From the IMG/VR virus record IMGVR_UViG_3300045950_000282, positions 1 to 28,107 of that record: a stretch of 28,107 bases of DNA. One strand, 5' to 3'. The translations under genes and the position numbers were made by a program. The notes beneath the pieces were generated by a model. It had not been told where the DNA came from. It made no database searches and saw nothing but the letters and a program-made list of their open reading frames with translations. The DNA comes from a virus. The first letter of the stretch is position 1. The number at the start of each line of letters is the position of its first letter. Shown in pieces: positions 1,863-27,625 of the stretch.

Positions 1863-3974
1863 ATGACAAGGACGAACTTAACCGAAAGCGACATTCATTT
1901 TATGGAATATTGGTATACGCCGGTATGCCTGATTGAATGTTTGTTCCATGATTTCGACAACCTGACGGCGTATAAAAGCGGCCGGTTCGGCGAAGTCCGC
2001 CTTTACCAGTATCCAATGGTTTCTGACGAATCCCTCATCGACTTCGAACTCACTGCCGAATATCACGGCATGAATAAAAAAGAAGAATTTCAGACGAGAA
2101 AAAATGTCGGAGACATTTACTGTTTCGGCGCCCGTAAATTCGGAAAATCCCTGATGGTCGAGACAATGGACTTAATCGTGTCCATGCTGACCTCCGATGG
2201 GGACAAGGTCGCCTTTGCCTCCGTTGACCTAATTCATATTAAGCAGATTCTCGATCCAATAAAAAACGCACTGGGAAATCACAGAATCCTTTCTCATTTC
2301 GTCCAGCGCATCAAAGGATCGCCGGATTATTATTTCGAACTTAAAAATAATTACGTCCTTAACAGCGTAAACTTCAATCTCGGTTCCACCATGCCCGGTC
2401 GCCAGTGGTACGGCAAACACGTTAAACGTGTTTATATCGAGGAGGCTTGTTTTTCCGGCCGGGCCAGAGTCGCCTGCATTGACAGCAAAGGAAAGCGTGT
2501 AACAAAGCGGTTATCTCAATTGGTAAACCAAAACGAATGGCGGGATCTGAAAGTTTGTAGCTACAACTTAAAAACCCGGGAATTGGAGGCCAAACGAATT
2601 ATCAAACCATTCAAGAAGACCGTTAAAAATTATACTTACTACAAAATTTCTGTCTTTTCACACGATAAAAACACCAAGCGGGTTCTGGAATCTTCCAGGA
2701 GACAGCAATTCTGGACAGATCAGGGATATAAATATGTAACGGATTTAAAAGCCGGGGATATTGTTTACAGCTTAGATTATCAGCAACTTAACCGTATTCC
2801 TTCCAAAGTTCTTTCCGTTGAACCTGTAACCGTCGGTTCGTGGACAATGTACGACATTGAAGTGGAGGATAATCATAACTTCTTTGCCAATGGAATTTTA
2901 GTCCATAATTCGATGGAAACCGACGAAGTCTACGATAAACGCAAGGACGCCCTTTCCGAGTTTGGCGCCGTATTCAGGGTCTCCGGCATGACGGATTTTA
3001 CTCCCTATTCCCCTGCCGGAAAGACCTTTTATAAGCTCGAAAATCAGAAATTTGTCCTGAATTATCCGCAGTTCGTGAACCCCTTCTTCGACGAAAAGGA
3101 AAAGCAGGAAAAGATCGAGGAATACGGCGGAGAAGATTCCATCGGGTACAAGGTCTTTGTCAAAGGCGAAGTCGTCGAAGACGGCGTCAGCGCCCTGGAC
3201 ATGAAACGCATCCGGGATAACTGCTACCTGGTCAACAAGAAGGGTAGTTTTCTCAAGGAAATCAAACGCTTTGAGATCAGCAAGGAAAGTTTCCGCTTCT
3301 GGAACCGCACCATCGTGGTTCAGCGGCCTGACAACGCGGATAGAATTTTTGTCTGTGCCGACATTGGTAAAAAGGTCACGGAAATCATCATTCATTCCGA
3401 AACCGCCGATAAATACGAATATCTTTACAACATCGTTCTTTACAACCTGACCCAGCAGGAAACCGAGACGATTCTTAGGCATGTCGTCAAAAAAGTCCGT
3501 GCCAATGTCGTCGGAATCGACTGCGGAGACGGCGAAGGACGCGGGATTTACAGCAGCTTCGAACAGGAATTCCCGAAAGACAATCTGGTTTATTACGACG
3601 GCAGCATGAAAATCAAGGTCGGCTTTGAATACGAAGACGCCGATGAAAACGGCGAAAAACGTATCAAACTGGACAAGGGCAAACCCGTCTTCCGTTTCGA
3701 ATACATGTCCGAATTTTCTGTCCAGCGAATTAAAGATCTCCTGTACGCAGGCAGATGCCGTATCCCGCAGGATTACAAGTTCGATGCCCAGTTCAGCGTC
3801 GTTATCGAAACCATGTCCGGCACACGGACGATTTACAAATGCGTCAGTACTCAGGGCGACCACCTTTTCGACGCCTGGCGTGTATTTGCCATTGCCCAGT
3901 GGCTGAAAAAGGATTTCAACGAAACGGGTGAAATATTCGATGACAGCAACTGGGGTGTCGGCGCTGTCAACTAA
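1863..3974 (+). CDS. terL: Terminase large subunit, interrupted by a mini-intein
   Basis: DNA-packaging motor: an ATPase that translocates DNA through the portal plus a nuclease that cuts concatemers. Walker A is GARKFGKS (residues 89-96), a variant like the RxxGKS/T form of large terminases. Walker B is VYIEE (190-194). Residues 196-349 are an intein whose removal joins IEEA to SMETDEVYD. VSGM (373-376) fits the coupling motif. The RNase H-like nuclease domain has its acidic residues at D500 (CADIG), D553 (VGIDCGDGEG) and D666/D670 (GDHLFDAW). Without the intein the protein is 549 residues, normal for the family. AAGGA lies eight bases before the ATG. A portal gene follows ten bases downstream. 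Confidence 0.93.
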   Translation: MTRTNLTESDIHFMEYWYTPVCLIECLFHDFDNLTAYKSGRFGEVRLYQYPMVSDESLIDFELTAEYHGMNKKEEFQTRKNVGDIYCFGARKFGKSLMVETMDLIVSMLTSDGDKVAFASVDLIHIKQILDPIKNALGNHRILSHFVQRIKGSPDYYFELKNNYVLNSVNFNLGSTMPGRQWYGKHVKRVYIEEACFSGRARVACIDSKGKRVTKRLSQLVNQNEWRDLKVCSYNLKTRELEAKRIIKPFKKTVKNYTYYKISVFSHDKNTKRVLESSRRQQFWTDQGYKYVTDLKAGDIVYSLDYQQLNRIPSKVLSVEPVTVGSWTMYDIEVEDNHNFFANGILVHNSMETDEVYDKRKDALSEFGAVFRVSGMTDFTPYSPAGKTFYKLENQKFVLNYPQFVNPFFDEKEKQEKIEEYGGEDSIGYKVFVKGEVVEDGVSALDMKRIRDNCYLVNKKGSFLKEIKRFEISKESFRFWNRTIVVQRPDNADRIFVCADIGKKVTEIIIHSETADKYEYLYNIVLYNLTQQETETILRHVVKKVRANVVGIDCGDGEGRGIYSSFEQEFPKDNLVYYDGSMKIKVGFEYEDADENGEKRIKLDKGKPVFRFEYMSEFSVQRIKDLLYAGRCRIPQDYKFDAQFSVVIETMSGTRTIYKCVSTQGDHLFDAWRVFAIAQWLKKDFNETGEIFDDSNWGVGAVN
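2448..2909 (+). other. 154-residue mini-intein in the terminase, no homing endonuclease
   Basis: The in-frame insertion begins with Cys (TGT 2448-2450, CFSGRARVACID, block A) and ends with VHN (block G), followed by Ser at 2910-2912 as the +1 nucleophile. Block F is clear (MYDIEVEDNHNFFANGILVHN has the YDxxVxxxHNF pattern). The DLKAGDIVYS segment is typical of the Hint fold. The block B TxxH motif is replaced by SRRQ at intein residues 83-86. There is no room for a LAGLIDADG or HNH endonuclease. By hand count 2521-2880 is about 39% GC, whereas sampled flanking lines of the host gene are 50-57%. Confidence 0.9.
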
Positions 3975-3984
3975 AGGATCATAA

Positions 3985-5760
3985 ATGTCCGGCGAAACTC
4001 ACGGAATTTTATTAAATCACATTTTATCCCTGATGATCAAAAGGATCATCGTTCCCGGCGACTTTCATGGACGGGTCAAAGCCGTCAAGGAAATGCTTCA
4101 GGACGATGTAACCGGTCTCGTTGATTCCCTGACCGATTTTGCCGTTGAGACCGCGGCGGTGGATTACAACATCGAAACCAATAACGACGAATTAACCTCC
4201 GCCCTTAAGAAATGGCTCGAACAGATTAACCGCGATTTCAGAGGGAAGATCCCTTCAGGAATCAAACCTCTGGCCGAAGAATATTTCAAGGAACGCTGGA
4301 AATACTCCTCCTTCCCCGTTCTTAAAATATCCGGATGGGAAGTCGATCCCAAGTCGAAACTCCTTCTGCCTTCGAAAATGTTCTTTCTGGATGGCGGAAG
4401 CATTTATGCCAAAGACAAAAACCCCGACGATCAGGGTTTAAGTATCGAGCAGTATGACTATTACCTGGGCAAAAACCTTGAAACCAAAAACAAACTCGAC
4501 AGCAACATTATTTTTACCAGACAAAACGGCCGCTGGCACGATAAATATCCCGTTCCGTTTTTAATCAAACGTGGAATTTACCGAAACTGGCGGATTATCG
4601 AAGCCATCAAGAGCAACGAAATGGACATCCTCGATCAGGTGATTCCTTACATGCTTCTTATCAAAAAGGGGACGGAACGTCTGGCCATCGATAAAGGGAT
4701 TAATTACGACGACAAGAAACTCAAGCAGGTCATCGAACAGCTTGAGGAATTGATCCAGAAAGCAAAAAGCTCTCACATCGATCTTGAAAAGAGCCTCGGT
4801 ACGCCGGTCAGGGCGAGCCAGTTCGACGAAGAAATCAAACACCTGATTCCCGATCTGTCCGCCATCTTCAATCCTGACCTCTTTGTCTTTGCCGAAAAGA
4901 ATATCCTAGCGGGACTCGGATTCATCGACGTTGTCGATGCCTCGACCAGTACACGTAGGGAAAGTATTCTTAACCCCAAACCGTTTATTCAGGAAGTCTA
5001 CAGCGGGGTCGATGCCTTCAAACAGTTATTAAAGGAAGTCTTATTTCTGATCATCGAAAAGAACCAGGATCACCCCAAGTACATGAACGCCGATTTCGAG
5101 ATTACATCCTCCCCCATCCGCGGCTTTATGACGGATAAATTCAAAGAGCGTATCCGGCAACTCTATGACCGCGGACGGATTTCATCGAAGACAGCCGTGG
5201 AATTAATAGGCGAACTGGATTTCGAAGTCGAAGTCAAACGCAGAGAAAAGGAAACCCGTGACGGCATCGAGCATACGATGTATCCGCCCGTGGTTGAAAA
5301 CCGAGAGGGTACCGGCGAAGATATTCTTTCTTCCTCTGAGGGGGATCACGAAATTCCAGATGATAAAGCGGGGATCCAGGCCAGAAATTTTGACAAAGCG
5401 TCGTTAGACCAAGAACCTGAAATTATCGCCTCGCCTTTTCAATCCGTTAAGGACCTGCCCCAGAGCGTAAGGGACAACCTTCCGACCTTGAGGCAAAGAC
5501 GCAAATGGCTGAGGATATTCAACAGTGCCTTTAATTTCTATTTGACAAAATTCAATGATGAGAAAAAGGCAGAGTCACGGGCCTTTGCGACGGCATGGGC
5601 CAAAGTCGATAAACCAGATTCCAAGCCAGATCAGGAGAAACCCAGGAAAAAGGAAGCCGAACTTGACACCGCCGGAATCGAACGTGAAGTCCTTGAGGAA
5701 GAAATTGCCGAGAAGAAAAATCAGCTACTGGACCATCTGCTGGAAAAAAGCAGGGAATAA
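3985..5760 (+). CDS. Portal protein with C-terminal ChaB-like domain
   Basis: Dodecameric head vertex channel through which DNA is packaged and to which the tail joins. The 591-residue product follows terL immediately and reads like a portal: LIPDLSAIF and NILAGLGFIDVV (about 283-315) match the segment before the clip, a long helix follows, and RGRISSKTAVELIGELDFEVEVKRREKE (about 395-422) is the usual portal motif after the stem. Residues about 484-543 resemble the ChaB family: SVKDLPQSVRDNLP, then FNSAFNFYL, then AFATAWAKVDK. The last 40 residues are a charged helix. AAAGGA precedes the ATG by about seven bases. The ChaB addition is unusual; its role in a portal is unknown. Confidence 0.8.
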   Translation: MSGETHGILLNHILSLMIKRIIVPGDFHGRVKAVKEMLQDDVTGLVDSLTDFAVETAAVDYNIETNNDELTSALKKWLEQINRDFRGKIPSGIKPLAEEYFKERWKYSSFPVLKISGWEVDPKSKLLLPSKMFFLDGGSIYAKDKNPDDQGLSIEQYDYYLGKNLETKNKLDSNIIFTRQNGRWHDKYPVPFLIKRGIYRNWRIIEAIKSNEMDILDQVIPYMLLIKKGTERLAIDKGINYDDKKLKQVIEQLEELIQKAKSSHIDLEKSLGTPVRASQFDEEIKHLIPDLSAIFNPDLFVFAEKNILAGLGFIDVVDASTSTRRESILNPKPFIQEVYSGVDAFKQLLKEVLFLIIEKNQDHPKYMNADFEITSSPIRGFMTDKFKERIRQLYDRGRISSKTAVELIGELDFEVEVKRREKETRDGIEHTMYPPVVENREGTGEDILSSSEGDHEIPDDKAGIQARNFDKASLDQEPEIIASPFQSVKDLPQSVRDNLPTLRQRRKWLRIFNSAFNFYLTKFNDEKKAESRAFATAWAKVDKPDSKPDQEKPRKKEAELDTAGIEREVLEEEIAEKKNQLLDHLLEKSRE

Positions 5761-5762
5761 CC

Positions 5763-6056
5763 ATGACTATTTATGAGGATCAGAACTTAACCAAACCGAT
5801 TGACAGGCTCGATCTGGGCATTGTCCCTGGGGGAGAAACCAGACGGTATTCTCTCTGGATCATGAACGATAACGGGACACTGGTCAAAGATCTTAAATTT
5901 TCTGTTGATCATAAAGAAGTAAAAATCATACAGGCCCCTGAGCAGATGCAGCCGCTGGAAAGACATGAAATCATTCTTGAGTGGACACCTTCCGTAACTC
6001 TTAAGGAAGGCCTGAAAACGGAACTTAAACTGAATGGAATCGAACTATGGAGTTAG
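5763..6056 (+). CDS. Small Ig-like beta-sandwich protein (97 aa)
   Basis: Unknown small virion-type protein. The alternation of short hydrophobic strands (GETRRYSLWIMND, LKFSVDHKEVKII, RHEIILEWTPS, KTELKLNGIELW) is that of an immunoglobulin-like or fibronectin-like domain, and the whole protein is just one such domain. No signal peptide or membrane segment. It starts two bases after the portal stop with an AGGGA ribosome site within that gene's end, and its last ten bases overlap the next gene, so the two are translationally coupled. It could be a small head decoration protein or the base of a fibre made from its neighbour (inference). Confidence 0.6.
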   Translation: MTIYEDQNLTKPIDRLDLGIVPGGETRRYSLWIMNDNGTLVKDLKFSVDHKEVKIIQAPEQMQPLERHEIILEWTPSVTLKEGLKTELKLNGIELWS

Positions 6057-7093
6057 GTGAAGAAATCATCGAGCCTCAGCCTGTAAACAAGGGTAATATT
6101 TTTCTGTCCAAAAACAGCAGTTCGCCGGGCGTCCCCCAGCGGCAGGTTTATTATGTCGGCAAGCACGGAAGCAATTCGAACAACGGCCTGACGATCAATA
6201 CCGCACTTTTGACTTTTACCCAGGCTATAAATCTGGCTACTCTCCAAAGTCCATCGTCAAACAAACGTTTTGTTATTATCTGTCTGGATCCCGGGGTATA
6301 TGCCGAAAATATAACGACTGTCCAGTGGGTTGATATTTATGCGCCGAATGCCGTTGTGGAAGGGTTCATAGCTCTCGCCGATAATGTGAGCGTGACTTTT
6401 CACAGAATACAGACCACCGGAAGTGCCGTTGTCAAAGCAGCGGGCAGCGGAATAAGTCATGTCATTATCGAACATATCCAGTTAAACAGTTCTGCGGACT
6501 TTACGATGGGAATCGCGAATCTCTCTCCCGATGGTATCATCATCGCACGGGTGGAAAAAATCATATGCAACGCTCCCTTCACGATTGCGGTTTTCTCAAA
6601 CTCTCCCGGTGCAGGATATATCGATTTTCAGATTGACAGCATTCTTTTAAACAGCGAATCAACCTTCGGTCTGGCTGCGGTGGATAATGGCAAATTGTAC
6701 GGCAGCGTAAATCAGATCATTGTCGTCACCGATTCCTCTCTGAACACTTTCGGGATATATACCCTGACCAACGGTGTCGTGGACGTTAACTGCCGGAAAA
6801 TCGATGCGAGTACCGCCATCTTGGTAAACCCTTCGAGCGTATGTTCGGTATTCGTTAATGAGCTGCTTGGGGCAGTGATCGGTCTGGGGACTCTTCATCT
6901 TGCGGAGGCAAAAAACAGCCACACTCCCGTATTCAAACAATTATCCGCCGATCCGCCTGATCCGGCAGAAGGACAGTCCATTATGTGGATGTCCGACGGC
7001 ACAGGTTCAGGCGATGCCGGAGATATTATGATCAAAATTACAAGTGCAGGCATAACCAAAACCGGAACACTGGTTGACTTCAGTGCTCTTTAA
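6047..7093 (+). CDS. Parallel beta-helix fibre/spike-like protein (348 aa)
   Basis: The N-terminal 35 residues resemble a virion attachment segment. YYVGKHGSNSNNGLTINTAL (from residue 35) is the opening of many right-handed beta-helix proteins (GSDxNxG followed by a region rich in aliphatic rungs). Residues 75-280 continue as short strands (VIICLDPGVYAENI, VDIYAPNAVVEG, ISHVIIEHIQL, YIDFQIDSILL, VNQIIVVTD, VVDVNCRKID), fitting stacked coils. The C-terminus (PPDPAEGQSIMWMSDGTGSG then GDIMIKI) is of a type seen at the ends of phage fibre proteins. No catalytic motif is evident. The start overlaps the preceding gene by ten bases. Its position between portal and protease suggests a head fibre rather than a tail spike. 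Confidence 0.65.
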   Translation: MELGEEIIEPQPVNKGNIFLSKNSSSPGVPQRQVYYVGKHGSNSNNGLTINTALLTFTQAINLATLQSPSSNKRFVIICLDPGVYAENITTVQWVDIYAPNAVVEGFIALADNVSVTFHRIQTTGSAVVKAAGSGISHVIIEHIQLNSSADFTMGIANLSPDGIIIARVEKIICNAPFTIAVFSNSPGAGYIDFQIDSILLNSESTFGLAAVDNGKLYGSVNQIIVVTDSSLNTFGIYTLTNGVVDVNCRKIDASTAILVNPSSVCSVFVNELLGAVIGLGTLHLAEAKNSHTPVFKQLSADPPDPAEGQSIMWMSDGTGSGDAGDIMIKITSAGITKTGTLVDFSAL

Positions 7094-7104
7094 GGGATAA
7101 CTCC

Positions 7105-7650
7105 ATGCTGATCATCGCCTATTTCTCGAATAAAGGCGTACCGGCAACCGGATTGACGCCGAGGATCAATATCTGGCGTGACAGCGGAGTACTGTTAATC
7201 AACAGCGCTCTTATGACGGAAATCGCAGGCGGGTTCTATAAATATGATTTCACTACGTATGACGACAGTCTTAATTACGTTTTTCGCGCGGACGGCGGGA
7301 CCATTCTGCTTAACGAAGACCGTTATGCGTTCGGTTCGAATGAAGCGGGACAGGTCACCAGCGGCATATCGTTAATTCCCGATCGGGTATGGGACGAATC
7401 CACTGCCGGACATAATCTGACCAATTCATTTGCTGAACTTGTAAAGAGGATTTCAGGGTTATGTCAGGACAATTACGCGGTTTTAAACCCCACGCACGAT
7501 AAATTCAACAATCTGACAAGCGGGATTATCAGAATTTATCCCACAGCCGCTGATGTCGATAACGACACTAACGCCATCGCCAGTTTTCAGATCAATGCGG
7601 CTTATAACTCGAAGGGGCAGTTGACGAGCTATAAAGTAAAACGCCTATGA
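7105..7650 (+). CDS. Virion-associated beta-sandwich protein (181 aa)
   Basis: Two-part protein. Residues 1-80 form a beta-sandwich-like domain (IAYFSNKGVPATGLTPRINI, then MTEIAGGFYKYDFTTYDDS, then YVFRADGG), a pattern I associate with accessory virion proteins carrying an Ig-type domain. Residues 90-181 begin with a helical linker (DRVWDESTAGHNLTNSFAEL) and end with a second beta domain (KFNNLTSGIIRIYPTAADVD ... SYKVKRL). The exact function is unknown. An AAGGG site lies about ten bases before the ATG. Its last codons overlap the next start as ATGA, so it is coupled to the repeat protein at 7647. I place it in the same head-fibre-like group by position. Confidence 0.6.
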   Translation: MLIIAYFSNKGVPATGLTPRINIWRDSGVLLINSALMTEIAGGFYKYDFTTYDDSLNYVFRADGGTILLNEDRYAFGSNEAGQVTSGISLIPDRVWDESTAGHNLTNSFAELVKRISGLCQDNYAVLNPTHDKFNNLTSGIIRIYPTAADVDNDTNAIASFQINAAYNSKGQLTSYKVKRL

Positions 7651-8216
7651 TCAAAGTATTTACCAGAGGCCTCACCGCTATTAAAAAGGCTGTCTCCCTA
7701 GCAACCAAAGGGATCCTTGATCCCGGTGCACTAAAAGGCGGAGGTCAGGCCGTCCGCAATAAAGTCGATGTTGCACTGAAGATCGAAGGTACGAAATCCT
7801 TCCCTGTCAGGGAAACTCTTTCCATCGAAGGCAGAAAAATATTTTCATCTGTATTCGCATTTCTGATTAAAGGGACAAAGGCTTTTTCTTCAGAAAGTTC
7901 TTTACCAGTCAAAGCTGTTGTTTCTCAGAAGCTCGGGAGTTCATTTAAACTGTCGGGCTCACGCAGCATCATGACCGGCAGGGGTCTTAAATTAAACGGA
8001 AACAAACAATTCCGTTTAAGAAAAGTCCTGAACGTTTCCGGTCACCGGAGTTTCCCGCTTAGTCTCTCCCAAGCGGTTACCGGTGTAAAGCAGTTTGAAT
8101 TCTCGGGGAATACCCGTCTGAAAGGTGCCAGACAAACCAGGCTTGGACAGAATTTCGAAGTCAACGGCAGAAAAGATATCACCAACATCCTCACAGCCCT
8201 CGATCTGATCGACTGA
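7647..8216 (+). CDS. Protein of ten 14-residue repeats, predicted beta-solenoid (189 aa)
   Basis: I know no family for this protein. After a basic, helical 40-residue N-terminus, residues 44-183 are ten repeats of exactly 14 residues with no insertion or deletion. The repeat glycine falls at 48, 62, 76, 104, 118, 132, 146, 160 and 174, with alanine at 90 in the one weak unit. Consensus: [L/F]-x-[I/V/L]-x-G-x-[K/R]-x-[F/I]-x5, as in LKIEGTKSF, LSIEGRKIF, FLIKGTKAF, LKLNGNKQF and LNVSGHRSF. The alternating hydrophobics and fixed period suggest a beta-roll or beta-solenoid, possibly trimeric. The protein is strongly basic. It starts within the stop of the preceding gene (ATGA) and ends with a short helical tail. 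Confidence 0.75.
   Translation: MIKVFTRGLTAIKKAVSLATKGILDPGALKGGGQAVRNKVDVALKIEGTKSFPVRETLSIEGRKIFSSVFAFLIKGTKAFSSESSLPVKAVVSQKLGSSFKLSGSRSIMTGRGLKLNGNKQFRLRKVLNVSGHRSFPLSLSQAVTGVKQFEFSGNTRLKGARQTRLGQNFEVNGRKDITNILTALDLID
7776..8195 (+). repeat. Protein-level tandem repeat, 10 units of 42 bases
   Basis: The ten 14-residue units correspond to ten consecutive 42-base units, all in phase. At DNA level the copies are strongly diverged (different codons at nearly every position), so the period is maintained by selection on the protein rather than by recent duplication. Confidence 0.75.
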
Positions 8217-8258: not shown

Positions 8259-8277
8259 GGAGGTCAATAATGTAATG
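8259..8277 (+). promoter_or_regulatory. Start-stop minimal ORF ahead of the protease/scaffold gene
   Basis: GGAGGT (8259-8264) is five bases from an ATG at 8270-8272 that is followed at once by TAA (8273-8275). The TAA overlaps the ATG of the real gene (8275-8277), giving ATGTAATG. The ribosome site is thus best placed for the dead-end start and ten bases from the productive one. Initiation, immediate termination and reinitiation is a possible way to tune protease/scaffold output. Confidence 0.45.
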
Positions 8278-10122
8278 TCAGAAAAAATCTCAAGTCTTGA
8301 AATTCAGAATTTCCTGAAAGATTTCAGGGACAATGCCCACACCGAGGTCTTTGAAACCGGCAGAGAGAAAGAAGAGATCATCCAGATCACCCGTGCCAAG
8401 ATGGGTATCGATCTGCAAAACAACACCGACTTGGCCGGGTTCAAAACCGTTTATACTTTTGGGGACGTGGCAAACGGCAACGGTGCCCGCCTACCGAAAC
8501 ATTTATTGCTGAAGGCTCTCCCCTCTCTTATCGGGAAACCCGTCAACATCAACCATGTCAGAAACTACGTGGTCGGATACTACATCGATTACCGGTACAT
8601 CGAGGCCGAGAATAAAGTCATCGCATACGGCATTTTCTTTAAAAGCAACTTCGGTCAGGAATGGTCGGAAGCCAAACAGCTTTTGAGGTCGAATCTTCTT
8701 GGGACATCGCATGAAGTCTGGTGCCCGCGCAAAAGCCGAAAATATTTGTCCGATGGCACCTATGAAGCCCAGGCCATCGAATTTGCCGGAGGCGCTCTTA
8801 TCTATCGAACCCATAAAGACGCCGTGAACCCTGAAAAAAATATGGATACGGCTTATAAAGGCTGTGACGTTCTTGAAATGGCCATGCAGCATATGAATAA
8901 AAACAATACAGATCTGATTTTCGCTTCCTTGCAGATTCCTGAGAAAAAGAAATACAGTCAGGAAGATCTGATTATCGCTGTCGAAGCCGGAGATATCCTT
9001 CCGAAACCTGAAGTTACCCCGGTGCAGGTACCTCCTGTACTGCCTGTTCAGCAGGTCCCGCGCATCAAATGCCAGAATTGCGGACATGAATTCGAAACCA
9101 ATTCGGTCGGAGAAATCCCCTGTCCGGAATGCCGTGCCATTATCGACAGAACCGGAAAAGTTCTTTATCCGCCTCAGAGAATCAAGTTCAGTTTCCGGGA
9201 TCCTGAAGACGGATCTACAAACTGGCGGCTGATTGAAGAGACCGATACCAAAGCCGTCATCAAGAATTTGGACACAGGCAAAATCTACGAACTCAGTTAT
9301 AAAACCAGGGACGATAATGACGAGCTTCTTAACCGGCTGAAATTCGTGTATATCGGCCATGCCAACTGCCCGCAGTGCGGATATTCGACCTCTTTCAGCA
9401 CTGTTACCAATGTCAGTAAATACGACATCAACTGCAAACACTGCGGCCTGCATTATGCCGTCAACATAAAGAAAGATAGTCTTCGCAAACAGATAAATGC
9501 CTACCGCGATATTACCGAAGAATTCAGATCGGGCAAAACAACACAGGGAGAAAACGTACAAGTGACAGAGAAAATTATGGAATTAGAAGTAGCGGGTCTT
9601 CAGGAAGGAATGGAGCTTGAGACAGCAGTTTTATCTGTCCCGGAGTCTCCTTCTGAAAAGGAAATCGAACTTCAGACGGCTACTCTGACCCGCACAGCCG
9701 CCGCAGATCTTATTGATCGTTATAAAAAAGCTGTTCGGAAGATGTCATCCAGAATCAGAGAACTCAGGAAAACCCTGAACCTGGAGACTTCCAGTCTTAA
9801 ATCTGCAAATGCGCTCGAAACAGCAAAGATACAGGAAGACGCAGACAAAAAGATAAACTGGTACAAAGCCAATGCCATCGAACTCATCAGAAGACGCGAG
9901 TCTCTGGGTAAGTTCGCAGACGATTTATCCGATGAAAAGATAATGGATGAAGACTCTTACGCAAAGGCCAGGCTTGAGAAAGAAAATGCTTTGCTCAAGG
10001 CGAACAAAGAACGCGGCAACGATGTCGTGGGAGACAAATACTTCCTCGTCAAAGACGCCGGCGAACTGAACCGCCTGAAAAACGAGATAAACAGCAAAGC
10101 ATTCGGAAATTCCTTAATTTAA
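8275..10122 (+). CDS. Prohead protease - zinc ribbon - scaffold fusion (615 aa)
   Basis: Residues 60-200 resemble an assemblin-type prohead protease: IGKPVNINHV with H94 as likely catalytic histidine, a VGYYIDYRYIEAENKVIAYG strand pair, and LLGTSHEVW with S145 as likely nucleophile. Two four-cysteine zinc ribbons follow: CQNC/CPEC (266-269, 283-286) and CPQC/CKHC (365-368, 387-390), separated by a beta-rich stretch. Residues 475-605 are charged, long-helix sequence typical of scaffolding proteins. The gene lies just before the major capsid gene, where protease and scaffold are expected. Possible internal starts (GTG 9562, ATG 9577) could give a free scaffold. The start follows a minimal ATG-TAA. 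The protease assignment is moderate; the zinc ribbons are plainly visible. Confidence 0.7.
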   Translation: MSEKISSLEIQNFLKDFRDNAHTEVFETGREKEEIIQITRAKMGIDLQNNTDLAGFKTVYTFGDVANGNGARLPKHLLLKALPSLIGKPVNINHVRNYVVGYYIDYRYIEAENKVIAYGIFFKSNFGQEWSEAKQLLRSNLLGTSHEVWCPRKSRKYLSDGTYEAQAIEFAGGALIYRTHKDAVNPEKNMDTAYKGCDVLEMAMQHMNKNNTDLIFASLQIPEKKKYSQEDLIIAVEAGDILPKPEVTPVQVPPVLPVQQVPRIKCQNCGHEFETNSVGEIPCPECRAIIDRTGKVLYPPQRIKFSFRDPEDGSTNWRLIEETDTKAVIKNLDTGKIYELSYKTRDDNDELLNRLKFVYIGHANCPQCGYSTSFSTVTNVSKYDINCKHCGLHYAVNIKKDSLRKQINAYRDITEEFRSGKTTQGENVQVTEKIMELEVAGLQEGMELETAVLSVPESPSEKEIELQTATLTRTAAADLIDRYKKAVRKMSSRIRELRKTLNLETSSLKSANALETAKIQEDADKKINWYKANAIELIRRRESLGKFADDLSDEKIMDEDSYAKARLEKENALLKANKERGNDVVGDKYFLVKDAGELNRLKNEINSKAFGNSLI

Positions 10123-10135
10123 GGAGAATAACGCA

Positions 10136-11125
10136 ATGGACGGATACGATCCTACGCGACGCTTAGATCTGGAAATTGCAAGGTTGTTGGGCGAACCCAT
10201 CAACACACAACTTCCTGTTCCGGTCGCTATTTCTGAGATTGCCGATACTTTTACTGCTGAACCGGGTGAACATATCTGGAGAATCAAAAATCTGGACAAC
10301 ACCCCGGATATCATTCTTGATGTCGATCCCAACGGTGTCATTACCCCTGTCAAGCGCACGCCGCTGACGGACGTTGAGTTGACCTTCAAAGGGTTAAACT
10401 CGAAAATGGATTACGTTCTTGTCGAAGATGTGCTTAACAAGGTGGATACAAACGCCCTGGCACGCCGGAAAGAGGCCATCTCCCGCGGGATGGATAAAAC
10501 CGAACTTAAGACCATCATCGATGCTCTCTTGACCCCCACCAACGAGGTGTTCCCTCACAACGAGGTCGGCGGATACGTCGTTACTGTCGAATCCGGTGAT
10601 GATCTTTACGACGTGTTTTTCAAGGCAAAACACGGTGTTGAGGATTACGGTGACAACTATCATGCTTTGGTCGGAGGAACGGTGAAGGAAAAGATCGACA
10701 CCTACGACAAAGACAACGTTACGACCTTCAACTACAACATCACGCTGATGGATCGCCTGGCTAAAGTCGGTATTTCTTTGAGGAAGATTTTCGGCAAAGT
10801 TTCCCGCAACGCTTCGGAAACCGAAACCGATCTTCTGGACAAGAAAAAACTGATCCTGGTAGCCCGCGATTCCACTATTGCCGAAGGTAAACCGATTCAG
10901 TTTGTGAGACGTAAAATCAACCCTGCCATCGCGCAGCTGATGGGTGCTGATGTTGACAGTGCCCAGCGCGCTATCATGGTCGGCCAGGTTCCTGTAATCG
11001 TCGAAGTATCCGGGACAAAGGAAAACGTCCTCGGCTATTCTGTCTACGGTTACGAATCTGTCGTTATTGCTGTAAAGAATCCTCGTGCCATCGCTACTGC
11101 TGACGTAACCGGGATCTTAACCTGA
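10136..11125 (+). CDS. Major capsid protein, HK97-fold type (329 aa)
   Basis: Shell-forming protein, identified by position (after the protease/scaffold, before a terminator and connector genes), by size and by character. The N-terminal region is polar. A typical spine-helix segment is seen around 105-135 (VLNKVDTNALARRKEAISRG), then LYDVFFKAKHGVEDYGDNYHALVG and NYNITLMDRLAKVGISLRKI, with LILVARDSTIAEGKPIQFVRRK and a C-terminal strand-rich axial domain (QVPVIVEVSG, YSVYGYESVVIAVKNPRAI). The C-terminal form is common in capsid proteins of this type. AAGGAG lies nine bases before the ATG, the strongest ribosome site of the head genes, in line with a very abundant product. No N-terminal scaffold (delta) domain is present, consistent with a separate scaffold upstream. 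Confidence 0.82.
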   Translation: MDGYDPTRRLDLEIARLLGEPINTQLPVPVAISEIADTFTAEPGEHIWRIKNLDNTPDIILDVDPNGVITPVKRTPLTDVELTFKGLNSKMDYVLVEDVLNKVDTNALARRKEAISRGMDKTELKTIIDALLTPTNEVFPHNEVGGYVVTVESGDDLYDVFFKAKHGVEDYGDNYHALVGGTVKEKIDTYDKDNVTTFNYNITLMDRLAKVGISLRKIFGKVSRNASETETDLLDKKKLILVARDSTIAEGKPIQFVRRKINPAIAQLMGADVDSAQRAIMVGQVPVIVEVSGTKENVLGYSVYGYESVVIAVKNPRAIATADVTGILT

Positions 11126-23677: not shown

Positions 23678-26600
23678 ATGGCTGAGATTTTCTTTCATGA
23701 AAACCTGAATGCCGCCAAAGGAATACGTATTTTTTCCCATACGGTTCTTCCCGAGGCTCCCCCATTTCTGCCGGACTGGTCATACCGTAAACTCATAACG
23801 TTAGACCACACCTGCACGGCCAGCTTACGACAAAACATTCCCGTTTTAATCCGTCTGACCGATCTGAACTTTGATTTTTCCAAGGCGAAACCGGACGGCG
23901 CAGACATCCGGTTTACCGACGCAGATGGTCTGACCTTGTTGAATTTCGAAAAGGAATTTTACGGTCAGACCTCGCCTCAATTCGGTCCTGATATCTGTAC
24001 CGGCGGATCCTGCTCTGCCAGTATAGGTGACTGTACACCCGCCTTTGATAACCTCGATAACGGCGGACACTGGGGCACTCCCTCCGGTGTGCTGCCCGGC
24101 GCCTGGATTCAGTATGATCTTGGAGCGGGCAATACAAAAACAGCCCGCCGACTCAGACTTAAACCCCACCACAATGTCAACGGAGGATTCGTCAAGGATT
24201 TCGAGCTTTACGGAAGCAATACCGGAGCCTTTAGTGGCGAAGAAATCCTTCTTCTCTCTGACCAGCACGCCAATAACAATGCCTGGGAGGAATACGACTT
24301 TGCCAATTTAACCGCATTTCGCTACCACCGCATCGTCGTACTTACCAACTGGCGTCCTGCCTTTTCCGATACGGCTATCGAAGAAATAGAACTTCTCGAA
24401 ATAACCAGTGGCGGCGGGAACGAAGCGACGTACTGGGTCAGAATACCTTCCGTTAATAATGTAACGGATACCTCCATTTATATCTATTACGGAAATCCGT
24501 CCGCTTTGGATGGTTCCAATCCGACCGAAGTCTGGAAAAATGCCGACGGCTCTGATTTCGAAGCTGTCTGGCATCTGGGCGAGGTTCCGGCCGGAACGCC
24601 GGGAGAAATCTTAGACTCGACCGAACACAACCATGACGGACAGGGTGTGGGAACTCTGCCTGTTCAGGTAGAAGCATTGATTTCCAAAGGACTGCGCGGA
24701 CAGGGCGGCAATTCGTACCTCAGCTTTCCCGACAGCGCCGGATTTTACCTTAACGCGGATTTTACGCTGGAATGGAAAATGCGCTGGAATGGATCCGTCA
24801 CCAATGGTTCCATCATGGGGCAATCACAAGGAGGCGGGTCACAACCAAAATGGTTCATAAATTACGGAGACATAAACGCAGGAAAAATCGGTTTTTATGA
24901 ACAATCCTTTGGCGTCACGTTTACCTGGTCTCCCCAGGCGAATACCTGGTATCATTGCCTCCTGAAACGGGCAGGCAACGACTGGAAATTCTTTGTAAAT
25001 AATATTCAGATCGACGCCACTCAGATCAACAGCGGTGTGGTGCAAAATATTACGACGGATTTTCGTCTGTTCAACGAAGGCGAAAGCTGGCGATGGTTTA
25101 CAGGCGATCTCGATGAGGTGCGTATTACCAAAGGGTCAGCCAGATCCGATGATTACATTTCGATAGCTTATTGTTCAGACAGCGATAATCTTCTGACATT
25201 CGGAGCAGAGGAACAAAATTCGGGAGAAAATTTCGAAGGCGCTGACAACATCACCCTTTCGGATCAGATTGACCTGTCTCTGACCAGAATCGTTTCTTCT
25301 TTCGAAAGTATTCTTTTAAGCGACGGGATAAATGTCGAACTCCTGGAAATTATCGGAATGGATACTCTGACGCTCTCCGATGATTTTCTGGTTAGTTCTG
25401 CGAAATCGCTTGATCTGGCGGATAGTATCAGTCTTTCGGATAACATTGACATTCAGCAGGCTTTGACTGCCATCGAACAGGACGCCGTATCCTTAAGCGA
25501 AGACATCGGACTGATCCGCACTGTTCAGAGAGAGATTAATAAGCAGGATTCAATAGTCCTCAGTGAAGATATCAGCCTGGGAATTCAGTCTCAGATAAAT
25601 GAGGATATCGCTCTCGCTGACGAAATCATTGCCGATAAATTTCTGTCCGTTGATGAAAGCAATACTGTCACGTTAAGTGACGAAGTCGATGTTATCAGAT
25701 TTGTTCAGAAGACGGTTAACGAAAATGAATTTCTGACCTTATCCGATCAAATCGTAGTTTCCCCTTCTTCGGAGTTTATCGATGAATCCGAGACCATCGA
25801 ATTACTGGATCAGATAGTCGTTTCCGTACTGGTCGAGACAGCAAAGAATGCCAGTAAAATCCTCTCCGTCAATCCCCTGGTGATCGTGACGGATTCCAGC
25901 CCGATGAAGGTGGTCAAGGTCGATATCACCAACCCTGCAAGTCCGACTTGGGAAATCTTCAGCTTTCCTTCCCTTTCGAATGCTAAAGACGCCGTTTACA
26001 ATGCGATATTCGACCTGATTTATGTGGCCTGCGCGGACGGCAAAATTCTTCAAGTAGACGCAGGCAATTTCTCCAATACCCAGATCGTTGATACGGGAGA
26101 TCTGAACGACCTGCAGCATATCGTCTCACTCGATGGCTTCCACAGACTTTATGCCGGAACCGATGATTCACAGGGGGAAATCCTCTATGTCGATAATGCG
26201 GATCTGGGGATACTGAATCTGGATATTCAGTGTCTGCAGCAGATTAACGGTATTACGGATATGGATATCAGAACGATTCAGGGCGGTATTCTGGGTACAA
26301 ATATTCAGTGTCTTGGGATAGAATCCGACAGAATCGGACTGGATATCCGTGTTATTTCTGATCCGTTTAATGAGATACCTCTTAATCCCATCAAGCAGAC
26401 CGATTTTCATGTTTATGTAAATGGAAATGAGATCGATGATGTACTTCTGGATGCCATAAAAATTTACCATGCCGCAGGGGAACAAAGCACCGCGACCTTT
26501 ATTGTCAAACGCCGACATGATGAACTTGATACAACAGTCAGCGGTCAAACATCACAAATTACCAGTCAAAACGATGTTCAGATTTATATCCAGGGTCATC

Positions 26601-27625
26601 TGGAGTTTACGGGAAAAGTAGCCCGTATTCGGACCAACAGCGAGAATGAAACCGTTGAGGTGACCGCCCAGGGATCCGAGAAAGAAAACGAGAACCGGAT
26701 TATTACTATCTCTCTTTCGGGGATTAACGAAAAACTTCACCCCTACCACTGTCTGGTCGATAATGAGGACATTTATAATCCTGTTATCGACCCAAACGCC
26801 GAAGATCCCGAATTCTTCTTTGGTATTGAGATCGATCTGGGAATGAGGATTATCCAGAACGTTTCCCGCTGGCTCGCGTTATTCGACGTATCGGAAGACT
26901 TAATAGACGGGACTTTTCAGCCGAAGCAAAACTGGACTTATTTTTGGTTCTGCAAAGCAACGAATTACCTGACAGGTGTCAAGCAGGCGTCCACCAGATA
27001 TATCGGAACAAGCCCTTCCACGATAACCGGGGATTTATGGGAAATCGATTTTATGAATTACCGCTATCAGCGGGAATTTGACGATAAGGAAACCGAACTG
27101 GGCGTTTACCAGGTGGGTACCGCGCCTTTTAAGAAACTCAGAGTCCGTAATGGCTGTAAAATCACCAAAAGCCGGTGGGTTGATAAGAACGACGGATTAT
27201 ACCGTGAAAAGGATACAGGGTATGATTTCGTCGAATACGCCAAAACAGTAGCCCAACTGGAATATGAAAAACTTCAGAACATCAATGGCGGTATTCTGCC
27301 GATAACCTCATGTGACATCGAAGTGATGATCGATGGTTATTACTATTACGGACTCAAACTGCTTACCAGAATAAACATCGATAACACGACGACTCCCGGC
27401 ATTTATAAAAACAACAACGGGTTCCCTGTAGCGGTGAAGGCTATCGAAATCGATTCCCGGTCAATGAGAGTTTCCCTGAAATGCGACAACCAGAAATCTG
27501 ATCAGGAATTACAGAAAATAGACGACCGGTTTCCTGATCCCGAGTCCGATGAGTTTAATTTCCCCGAAGAATCGGTCAGGGAATTTACCAAGTTCGATTT
27601 CGGAAGATTCGAGAGCGTGCAATAA
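23678..27625 (+). CDS. Giant adhesin fused to baseplate-hub-like domain (1315 aa)
   Basis: Multi-domain adsorption protein. Residues 31-95 and 249-302 look like the two halves of a DUF2341 domain (WSYRKLITLDHT ... PDGADIRFTDADG; then ATYWVRIPSV ... IYIYYGNPSA). Between them (107-244) lies a discoidin-like F5/8C domain (GAWIQYDLGAG, VKDFELYGSNTG). Residues 310-510 are a LamG-like lectin fold (NADFTLEWKMRW, WYHCLLKRAGNDWKFFVNN, GDLDEVRITKG). Residues 524-716 are ten LSD repeats, 722-845 a propeller-like part, and 849-900 short LDI repeats. The C-terminus (about 905-1290) resembles tail hub proteins: FHVYVNGNEIDDVLLDAIKI, VQIYIQGHLEFTGKVARI, ENETVEVTAQG. AAGGA is seven bases before the ATG. Hub at the C-terminus and adhesin at the N-terminus is the reverse of most tail-tip proteins. 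Confidence 0.72.
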   Translation: MAEIFFHENLNAAKGIRIFSHTVLPEAPPFLPDWSYRKLITLDHTCTASLRQNIPVLIRLTDLNFDFSKAKPDGADIRFTDADGLTLLNFEKEFYGQTSPQFGPDICTGGSCSASIGDCTPAFDNLDNGGHWGTPSGVLPGAWIQYDLGAGNTKTARRLRLKPHHNVNGGFVKDFELYGSNTGAFSGEEILLLSDQHANNNAWEEYDFANLTAFRYHRIVVLTNWRPAFSDTAIEEIELLEITSGGGNEATYWVRIPSVNNVTDTSIYIYYGNPSALDGSNPTEVWKNADGSDFEAVWHLGEVPAGTPGEILDSTEHNHDGQGVGTLPVQVEALISKGLRGQGGNSYLSFPDSAGFYLNADFTLEWKMRWNGSVTNGSIMGQSQGGGSQPKWFINYGDINAGKIGFYEQSFGVTFTWSPQANTWYHCLLKRAGNDWKFFVNNIQIDATQINSGVVQNITTDFRLFNEGESWRWFTGDLDEVRITKGSARSDDYISIAYCSDSDNLLTFGAEEQNSGENFEGADNITLSDQIDLSLTRIVSSFESILLSDGINVELLEIIGMDTLTLSDDFLVSSAKSLDLADSISLSDNIDIQQALTAIEQDAVSLSEDIGLIRTVQREINKQDSIVLSEDISLGIQSQINEDIALADEIIADKFLSVDESNTVTLSDEVDVIRFVQKTVNENEFLTLSDQIVVSPSSEFIDESETIELLDQIVVSVLVETAKNASKILSVNPLVIVTDSSPMKVVKVDITNPASPTWEIFSFPSLSNAKDAVYNAIFDLIYVACADGKILQVDAGNFSNTQIVDTGDLNDLQHIVSLDGFHRLYAGTDDSQGEILYVDNADLGILNLDIQCLQQINGITDMDIRTIQGGILGTNIQCLGIESDRIGLDIRVISDPFNEIPLNPIKQTDFHVYVNGNEIDDVLLDAIKIYHAAGEQSTATFIVKRRHDELDTTVSGQTSQITSQNDVQIYIQGHLEFTGKVARIRTNSENETVEVTAQGSEKENENRIITISLSGINEKLHPYHCLVDNEDIYNPVIDPNAEDPEFFFGIEIDLGMRIIQNVSRWLALFDVSEDLIDGTFQPKQNWTYFWFCKATNYLTGVKQASTRYIGTSPSTITGDLWEIDFMNYRYQREFDDKETELGVYQVGTAPFKKLRVRNGCKITKSRWVDKNDGLYREKDTGYDFVEYAKTVAQLEYEKLQNINGGILPITSCDIEVMIDGYYYYGLKLLTRINIDNTTTPGIYKNNNGFPVAVKAIEIDSRSMRVSLKCDNQKSDQELQKIDDRFPDPESDEFNFPEESVREFTKFDFGRFESVQ
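25247..25825 (+). repeat. Ten LSD repeats of about 20 residues in the adhesin
   Basis: The motif [I/V]-x-L-[S/A/L]-[D/E]-x-[I/V]-x-[L/V] recurs with its first leucine at residues 527, 547, 566, 586, 606, 628, 646, 666, 688 and 709, that is, at intervals of 18 to 22 residues. Examples are ITLSDQIDL, ISLSDNIDI and VTLSDEVDV. The acidic, serine-rich units probably form an extended, perhaps calcium-binding, stalk between lectin-like head and hub. Confidence 0.7.

Follow-up and report, generated by a model that had tools for sequence, protein, structure and literature searches.

The virus record analysed here (28.1 kb; the window, in what follows, is the whole stretch of 28,107 nucleotides) encodes, among genes for head formation, a small protein built largely from a 14-residue tandem repeat. 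The locus raises two questions: what such an array might fold into, and what a phage might use it for. The gene, designated REP, is an ORF at window positions 7647–8216 (+ strand) with a product of 189 aa. It was compared with viral contigs (L numbers below) that are incomplete. The features concerned are:

3985–5760, + strand: portal, by position and relatives; nearly all relatives have a homologue, which mostly follows TerL
5763–6056, + strand: p97, Ig/ASH-like, directly after the portal gene; weak HYDIN/ASH matches and co-occurrence with REP
6047–7093, + strand: p348, probable beta-helix fibre-like protein, judged by position and the look of its sequence
7105–7650, + strand: p181; its stop codon overlaps the REP start (ATGA)
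7647–8216, + strand: REP gene, an ORF with homologues in eight other viruses
7647–7715, + strand: REP N-terminal region, where a TRG/TKG motif occurs twice at a spacing of 14 aa; the motif is doubled also in L014, L024, and L032
7773–8192, + strand: ten 14-residue REP units, residues 43–182
7899–7940, + strand: aberrant unit 4 (SLPVKAVVSQKLGS), six units ahead of the array end
8151–8213, + strand: last REP unit plus the C-terminal tail (NFEVNGRKDITNILTALDLID), where conservation is highest (alignments A2 and A4)
8275–10122, + strand: p615, prohead protease/scaffold-like with zinc-ribbon parts, by position and weak zinc-ribbon matches
10136–11125, + strand: major capsid protein, by position and conservation (alignment A3 and a scan; 24 viral loci)

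The 14-residue array and its homologues

Residues 43–182 of the window REP form ten units, each of exactly 14 aa and with no insertions. The unit glycine falls at residues 48, 62, 76, 104, 118, 132, 146, 160, and 174, with alanine at 90. This reproduces the series given in an earlier, sequence-only reading of the same DNA; the array had been placed at 7776–8195, however, which starts one residue late and is corrected here to 7773–8192. At lag 14, the BLOSUM62 autocorrelation of the protein is 45, compared to a shuffled mean of −142 (SD 27; z 6.8), a score attained by none of 20,000 shuffles; with all lags from 5 to 40 scanned, the best observed lag was matched by none of 2,000. Further peaks are found at lags 28 and 42. 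The units were rightly described as strongly diverged in DNA: mean identity between them is 22% for amino acids and 35% for nucleotides, vs. 25% for nucleotides in rotated registers. The consensus does not extend to all ten, as had been supposed, since unit 4 (SLPVKAVVSQKLGS) has neither the glycine nor the lysine at position 8. Ahead of the array, the two N-terminal motifs read T6-R7-G8-L9 and T20-K21-G22-I23.

The family was opened via a terminase query without its mini-intein, which yielded 14 related viral contigs, two of them with REP; profile scans with REP and the capsid protein brought the REP count to nine distinct viruses (the window, L014, L002, L017, L018, L019, L021, L024, and L032). 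Later scans for more REP viruses added none, and viral contigs scanned with REP, the capsid protein, or p615 as a single query gave no match. The mini-intein (about 152 residues) is in the large terminase (window 1863–3974), directly after a Walker B-like VYIEEA, and is missing at that position in most relatives.

The other eight REPs are 21–38% identical to that of the window. The 14-residue period had been expected in homologues, with its absence there taken beforehand as grounds for giving up the reading; it is present in every member (z about 5–9.7 by shuffling). There are ten units in six members including the window, nine in L018 and L021, and six in L019, so that repeat number differs between members by whole units. 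The perfect register of ten units reported earlier thus stands for the window and most homologues, but not for L019, with its six units and a 2-residue step. The shared unit is h-x-h-x-[GA]-x-[KR]-x-[FI]-x-h. In the profile of 84 units, position 4 is hydrophobic in 98%, position 6 is Gly or Ala in 93%, position 8 is Lys or Arg in 80%, position 10 is hydrophobic in 83%, and positions 2 and 12 are hydrophobic in 69%. Six units from the end, the arrays of the window, L014, L017, L021, L024, and L032 have an odd unit, in which the glycine and/or the lysine is missing. The part most conserved between members is a C-terminal tail, G-x-KD-[IL]-T-[NP]-IL-x-ALDL; the N-termini of L002 and L021 are different, with an FNS/FNT-type start. 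The window protein is basic, as already remarked (33 K+R, 11 D+E; pI 11.3), and all its homologues are basic too (pI 9.3–10.5).

Searches of known families returned little. The window REP has no Pfam or PHROGs family at E 1, and for the nine members together there were only isolated single-member matches (best E 0.005). The window, L032, and L002 REPs had no tblastn match in annotated phages, a PDB profile search was empty, and a literature search for a 14-residue phage solenoid found nothing.

A contig in a Lokiarchaeota MAG (L022 / JAEOSD010000030.1) is 100% identical to the L014 virus over 11 kb. An Asgard host was considered and set aside. The binning of a virus in a MAG is weak host evidence, and among the 228 genomes of the phylum just one more has a related capsid gene, so no host is claimed. 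A search for Amidase_2, as a hint of a bacterial host, found none in seven contigs, which is not informative alone.

Fold of the array

Hydrophobic residues make up 82% of positions 2, 4, 10, and 12 of the REP units vs. 25% of positions 3, 5, 9, and 11, and in eight of nine arrays the hydropathy spectrum has its maximum at 180 degrees. As a sequence pattern, this is strict beta alternation, in a single phase throughout the array, and the beta-type pattern first ascribed to the units is supported. The step from there to a solenoid is not borne out. AlphaFold found no fold either for the nine aligned full-length REPs (pLDDT 35.5) or for the array alone (pLDDT 28.7), its best-scoring part being an N-terminal helix at residues 3–20 (pLDDT about 50–60); the alignment held 8–9 sequences, and a shallow alignment alone also yields a failed run. 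These monomer predictions lend no support to a monomeric solenoid and neither prove nor exclude a multimer. Coupling of charge, volume, and hydropathy over 75 adjacent unit pairs gave no consistent diagonal or antidiagonal signal, that is, neither stacking nor meander pairing. This is a failure to show a solenoid rather than a disproof, and on these models the term is unproven for the REP array. As the repeat is explained neither by AlphaFold nor by any solved structure, its beta-architecture could be a new one.

The left-handed parallel beta-roll of YadA-type heads has the same 14-residue tandem period as REP, is likewise of beta type, and also occurs in an adhesin context. Its motif, GxNSVAIGAxSxAx, has two glycines and small residues (PMC9543794), while that of REP is h-x-h-x-G-x-K-x-F-x-h; REP, unlike YadA-type heads, is encoded among phage head genes. 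The shared period and the differing motif had both been pointed out and are both confirmed. Membership of REP in the YadA type was rejected on the motif (84-unit profile), and the PDB profile search also found no match.

One possibility is that REP by itself forms a multimer, for example a trimer, with the architecture of a beta-fibre or beta-roll; it would then be a short fibre in its own right, neither acting as an adaptor nor partnering p97 directly. Alternation in one phase along the array, the central glycine, and variation by whole units would all fit. Short beta repeats with a conserved glycine are known from the triple beta-spiral and triple beta-helix shafts of phage and adenovirus fibres, which are obligate trimers, but period and motif differ from those of REP, in which there is no parity change at the glycine. 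At the unit borders, moreover, turn residues are not strongly conserved (turn-formers 0.36 at position 13 and 0.40 at position 1), adjacent units show no coupling signal, a PDB match is lacking, the monomer is unfolded in AF2, and the link to p97 described below is left unexplained. On balance, a fibre of REP alone seems rather unlikely.

The variable slot and the partner gene p97

In most contigs the genes run from terminase through portal, p97, variable fibre-type genes, REP, and protease/scaffold to capsid; REP was correctly assigned to a head-gene region, upstream of the protease/scaffold and capsid genes. In eight of the nine members, the rearranged L002 among them, REP immediately precedes the protease-like gene. 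In that contig (11916–14417), the portal and p97 genes are downstream of the capsid gene, with REP still upstream of the protease. The window protein at this position, p615 (8275–10122), is presumably the protease; it has two zinc-ribbon-like stretches mid-protein.

What lies between portal and REP varies. Since neither p348 nor p181 had a significant match in family searches, the role of p348 is one that we infer: its sequence and its place in the variable slot suggest that it is probably a fibre-like beta-helix protein. By similar inference, p181 would be adhesin-like; its homologues are in p97/REP contigs only. Among the slot neighbours of REP are DUF2793 fibres, LamG proteins, and F5/8C proteins; beta-helix fibres are found there in relatives. 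In L024, the slot holds p97 and REP alone. In relatives without REP, the slot is filled by an 82-aa gene, in most cases along with NPxTG fibres, or by other genes, or it is nearly empty (gaps of 3 nt in L034 and 16 nt in L041). The 82-aa family is after or near the portal gene in ten contigs (L004, L005, L008, L010, L011, L012, L013, L034, L037, and L040), in most of them followed by fibres with NPxTG in the N-terminus. The slot of L018 also includes a glycosyltransferase-methyltransferase-like protein (4411–5835). Elsewhere in the window (23678–27625), a 1315-aa protein combines numerous repeats of LSDxIxLS type with a stretch resembling LamG (phrog_3545, E 1e-15).

The constant companion of REP is p97, whose matches to Ig/ASH-type profiles are weak (best E 1e-4, to HYDIN/ASH, for the L019 member) and end at profile column 74–80 of 98–100. 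It is present in nine of nine REP contigs. Twenty related contigs, a set that includes some near duplicates, are without REP, and also without p97 apart from a single marginal match (E 0.007, within a larger ORF). In L015, p97 is present and the contig ends before the place of REP; a scan with a closer subset of p97 proteins found only contigs already known to have REP. On the capsid tree, the presence of REP requires at least five changes, two of them forced by supported branches, and p97 tracks every one, although two to five independent gains or losses are too few for a formal test of the link.

This distribution bears on the suggestion, also made from the sequence, that REP is a DNA- or capsid-binding protein of the head. 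The pI of 9.3–11.3 in all members and the location among head genes would suit such a protein. REP is however missing from relatives that share the capsid family and occurs, with p97, beside an unrelated T4-type capsid protein in L019 (phrog_138, E 4e-36), which argues against a core capsid role; family searches gave no match to a DNA-binding family. DNA or capsid binding is accordingly very improbable.

A proposed adaptor or shaft for exchangeable fibres

The p97 and REP pair is accessory, mobile, and tied to the fibre slot near the portal. Because of the constant company of p97 and the adjacent swappable fibre genes, REP is probably an accessory part of the particle, and its earlier description as possibly part of a fibre is supported; fibre- and lectin-type genes lie beside it. 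The reading preferred here makes REP an accessory component of the virion that, together with p97, provides surface fibres near the portal or head with an exchangeable adaptor or shaft; the probability of this reading is put at roughly 0.5. REP would then sit in the virion, with the N-terminal motif and the helix-like C-terminal tail as its attachment ends and the array as an elongated multimeric beta-structure, and would carry or extend neighbouring fibres for host attachment. An obligate multimer is compatible with the AF2 result, in which the REP monomer did not fold. Fibre genes can also lie elsewhere, as in L024, so direct contact between REP and a fibre is no more than a proposal.

By architecture, the closest precedent for p97 and REP is the head spike of RcGTA, which consists of a base (Rcc01079) and a fibre (Rcc01080) anchored by a short repetitive N-terminus (PMC7296036). 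Both would be two-part accessory surface structures, with a small beta-sandwich-type base and a longer protein; the RcGTA base, though, is a jellyroll while p97 looks Ig/ASH-like, and the RcGTA fibre, unlike REP, is not described as a 14-residue repeat. The slot could also serve the tail, since DUF2793 marks a tail fibre in RcGTA (PMC10883770).

A more intimate relationship between the two proteins is conceivable, with REP as a polyvalent string of donor strands, each unit completing or augmenting one Ig-like p97 (or another Ig-like domain), and up to about ten copies of p97 threaded on it as beads. Strict co-occurrence would follow, and the array alone would have no fold, as in AlphaFold. In chaperone-usher pili, donor strands are alternating hydrophobic strands with a central glycine and an Ig-like partner, and the unit h-x-h-x-G-x-K-x-F-x-h resembles them by analogy; those pili have one donor strand per subunit, while REP would have ten units in one chain. 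The p97 profile matches stop near column 75–80 of about 100, which leaves space for roughly a single short strand; in six of ten p97 proteins, the best match to the REP unit core lies in the last residues. The mean of these C-terminal matches is below the 95% shuffle level, however, the p97 proteins are not independent, and the Ig match itself is weak; a literature search for donor strands in phages found no relevant paper. Donor-strand threading is therefore unlikely, and its fullest form, a beads-on-a-string p97 shaft on some ten strands, its length set by repeat number and its exchangeable fibres borne across unrelated capsids, slightly more so.

REP could also act outside the mature particle, in the assembly or chaperoning of the head or of the neighbouring fibres. 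It is small and basic, adjoins the protease gene, and is missing from some relatives. Its link is to p97, though, and not to any single fibre type, and a large tandem-repeat array is unusual among phage fibre chaperones. A role confined to assembly is hence improbable.

REP defines an undescribed repeat family, and with p97 it makes up a two-gene module that phages of unrelated capsid type have in common. The slot occupied by this module switches between no content and at least two systems associated with fibres. Should REP and p97 indeed act as an adaptor, these poorly known phages would exchange their surface fibres as cassettes, and the number of repeats may set fibre length.
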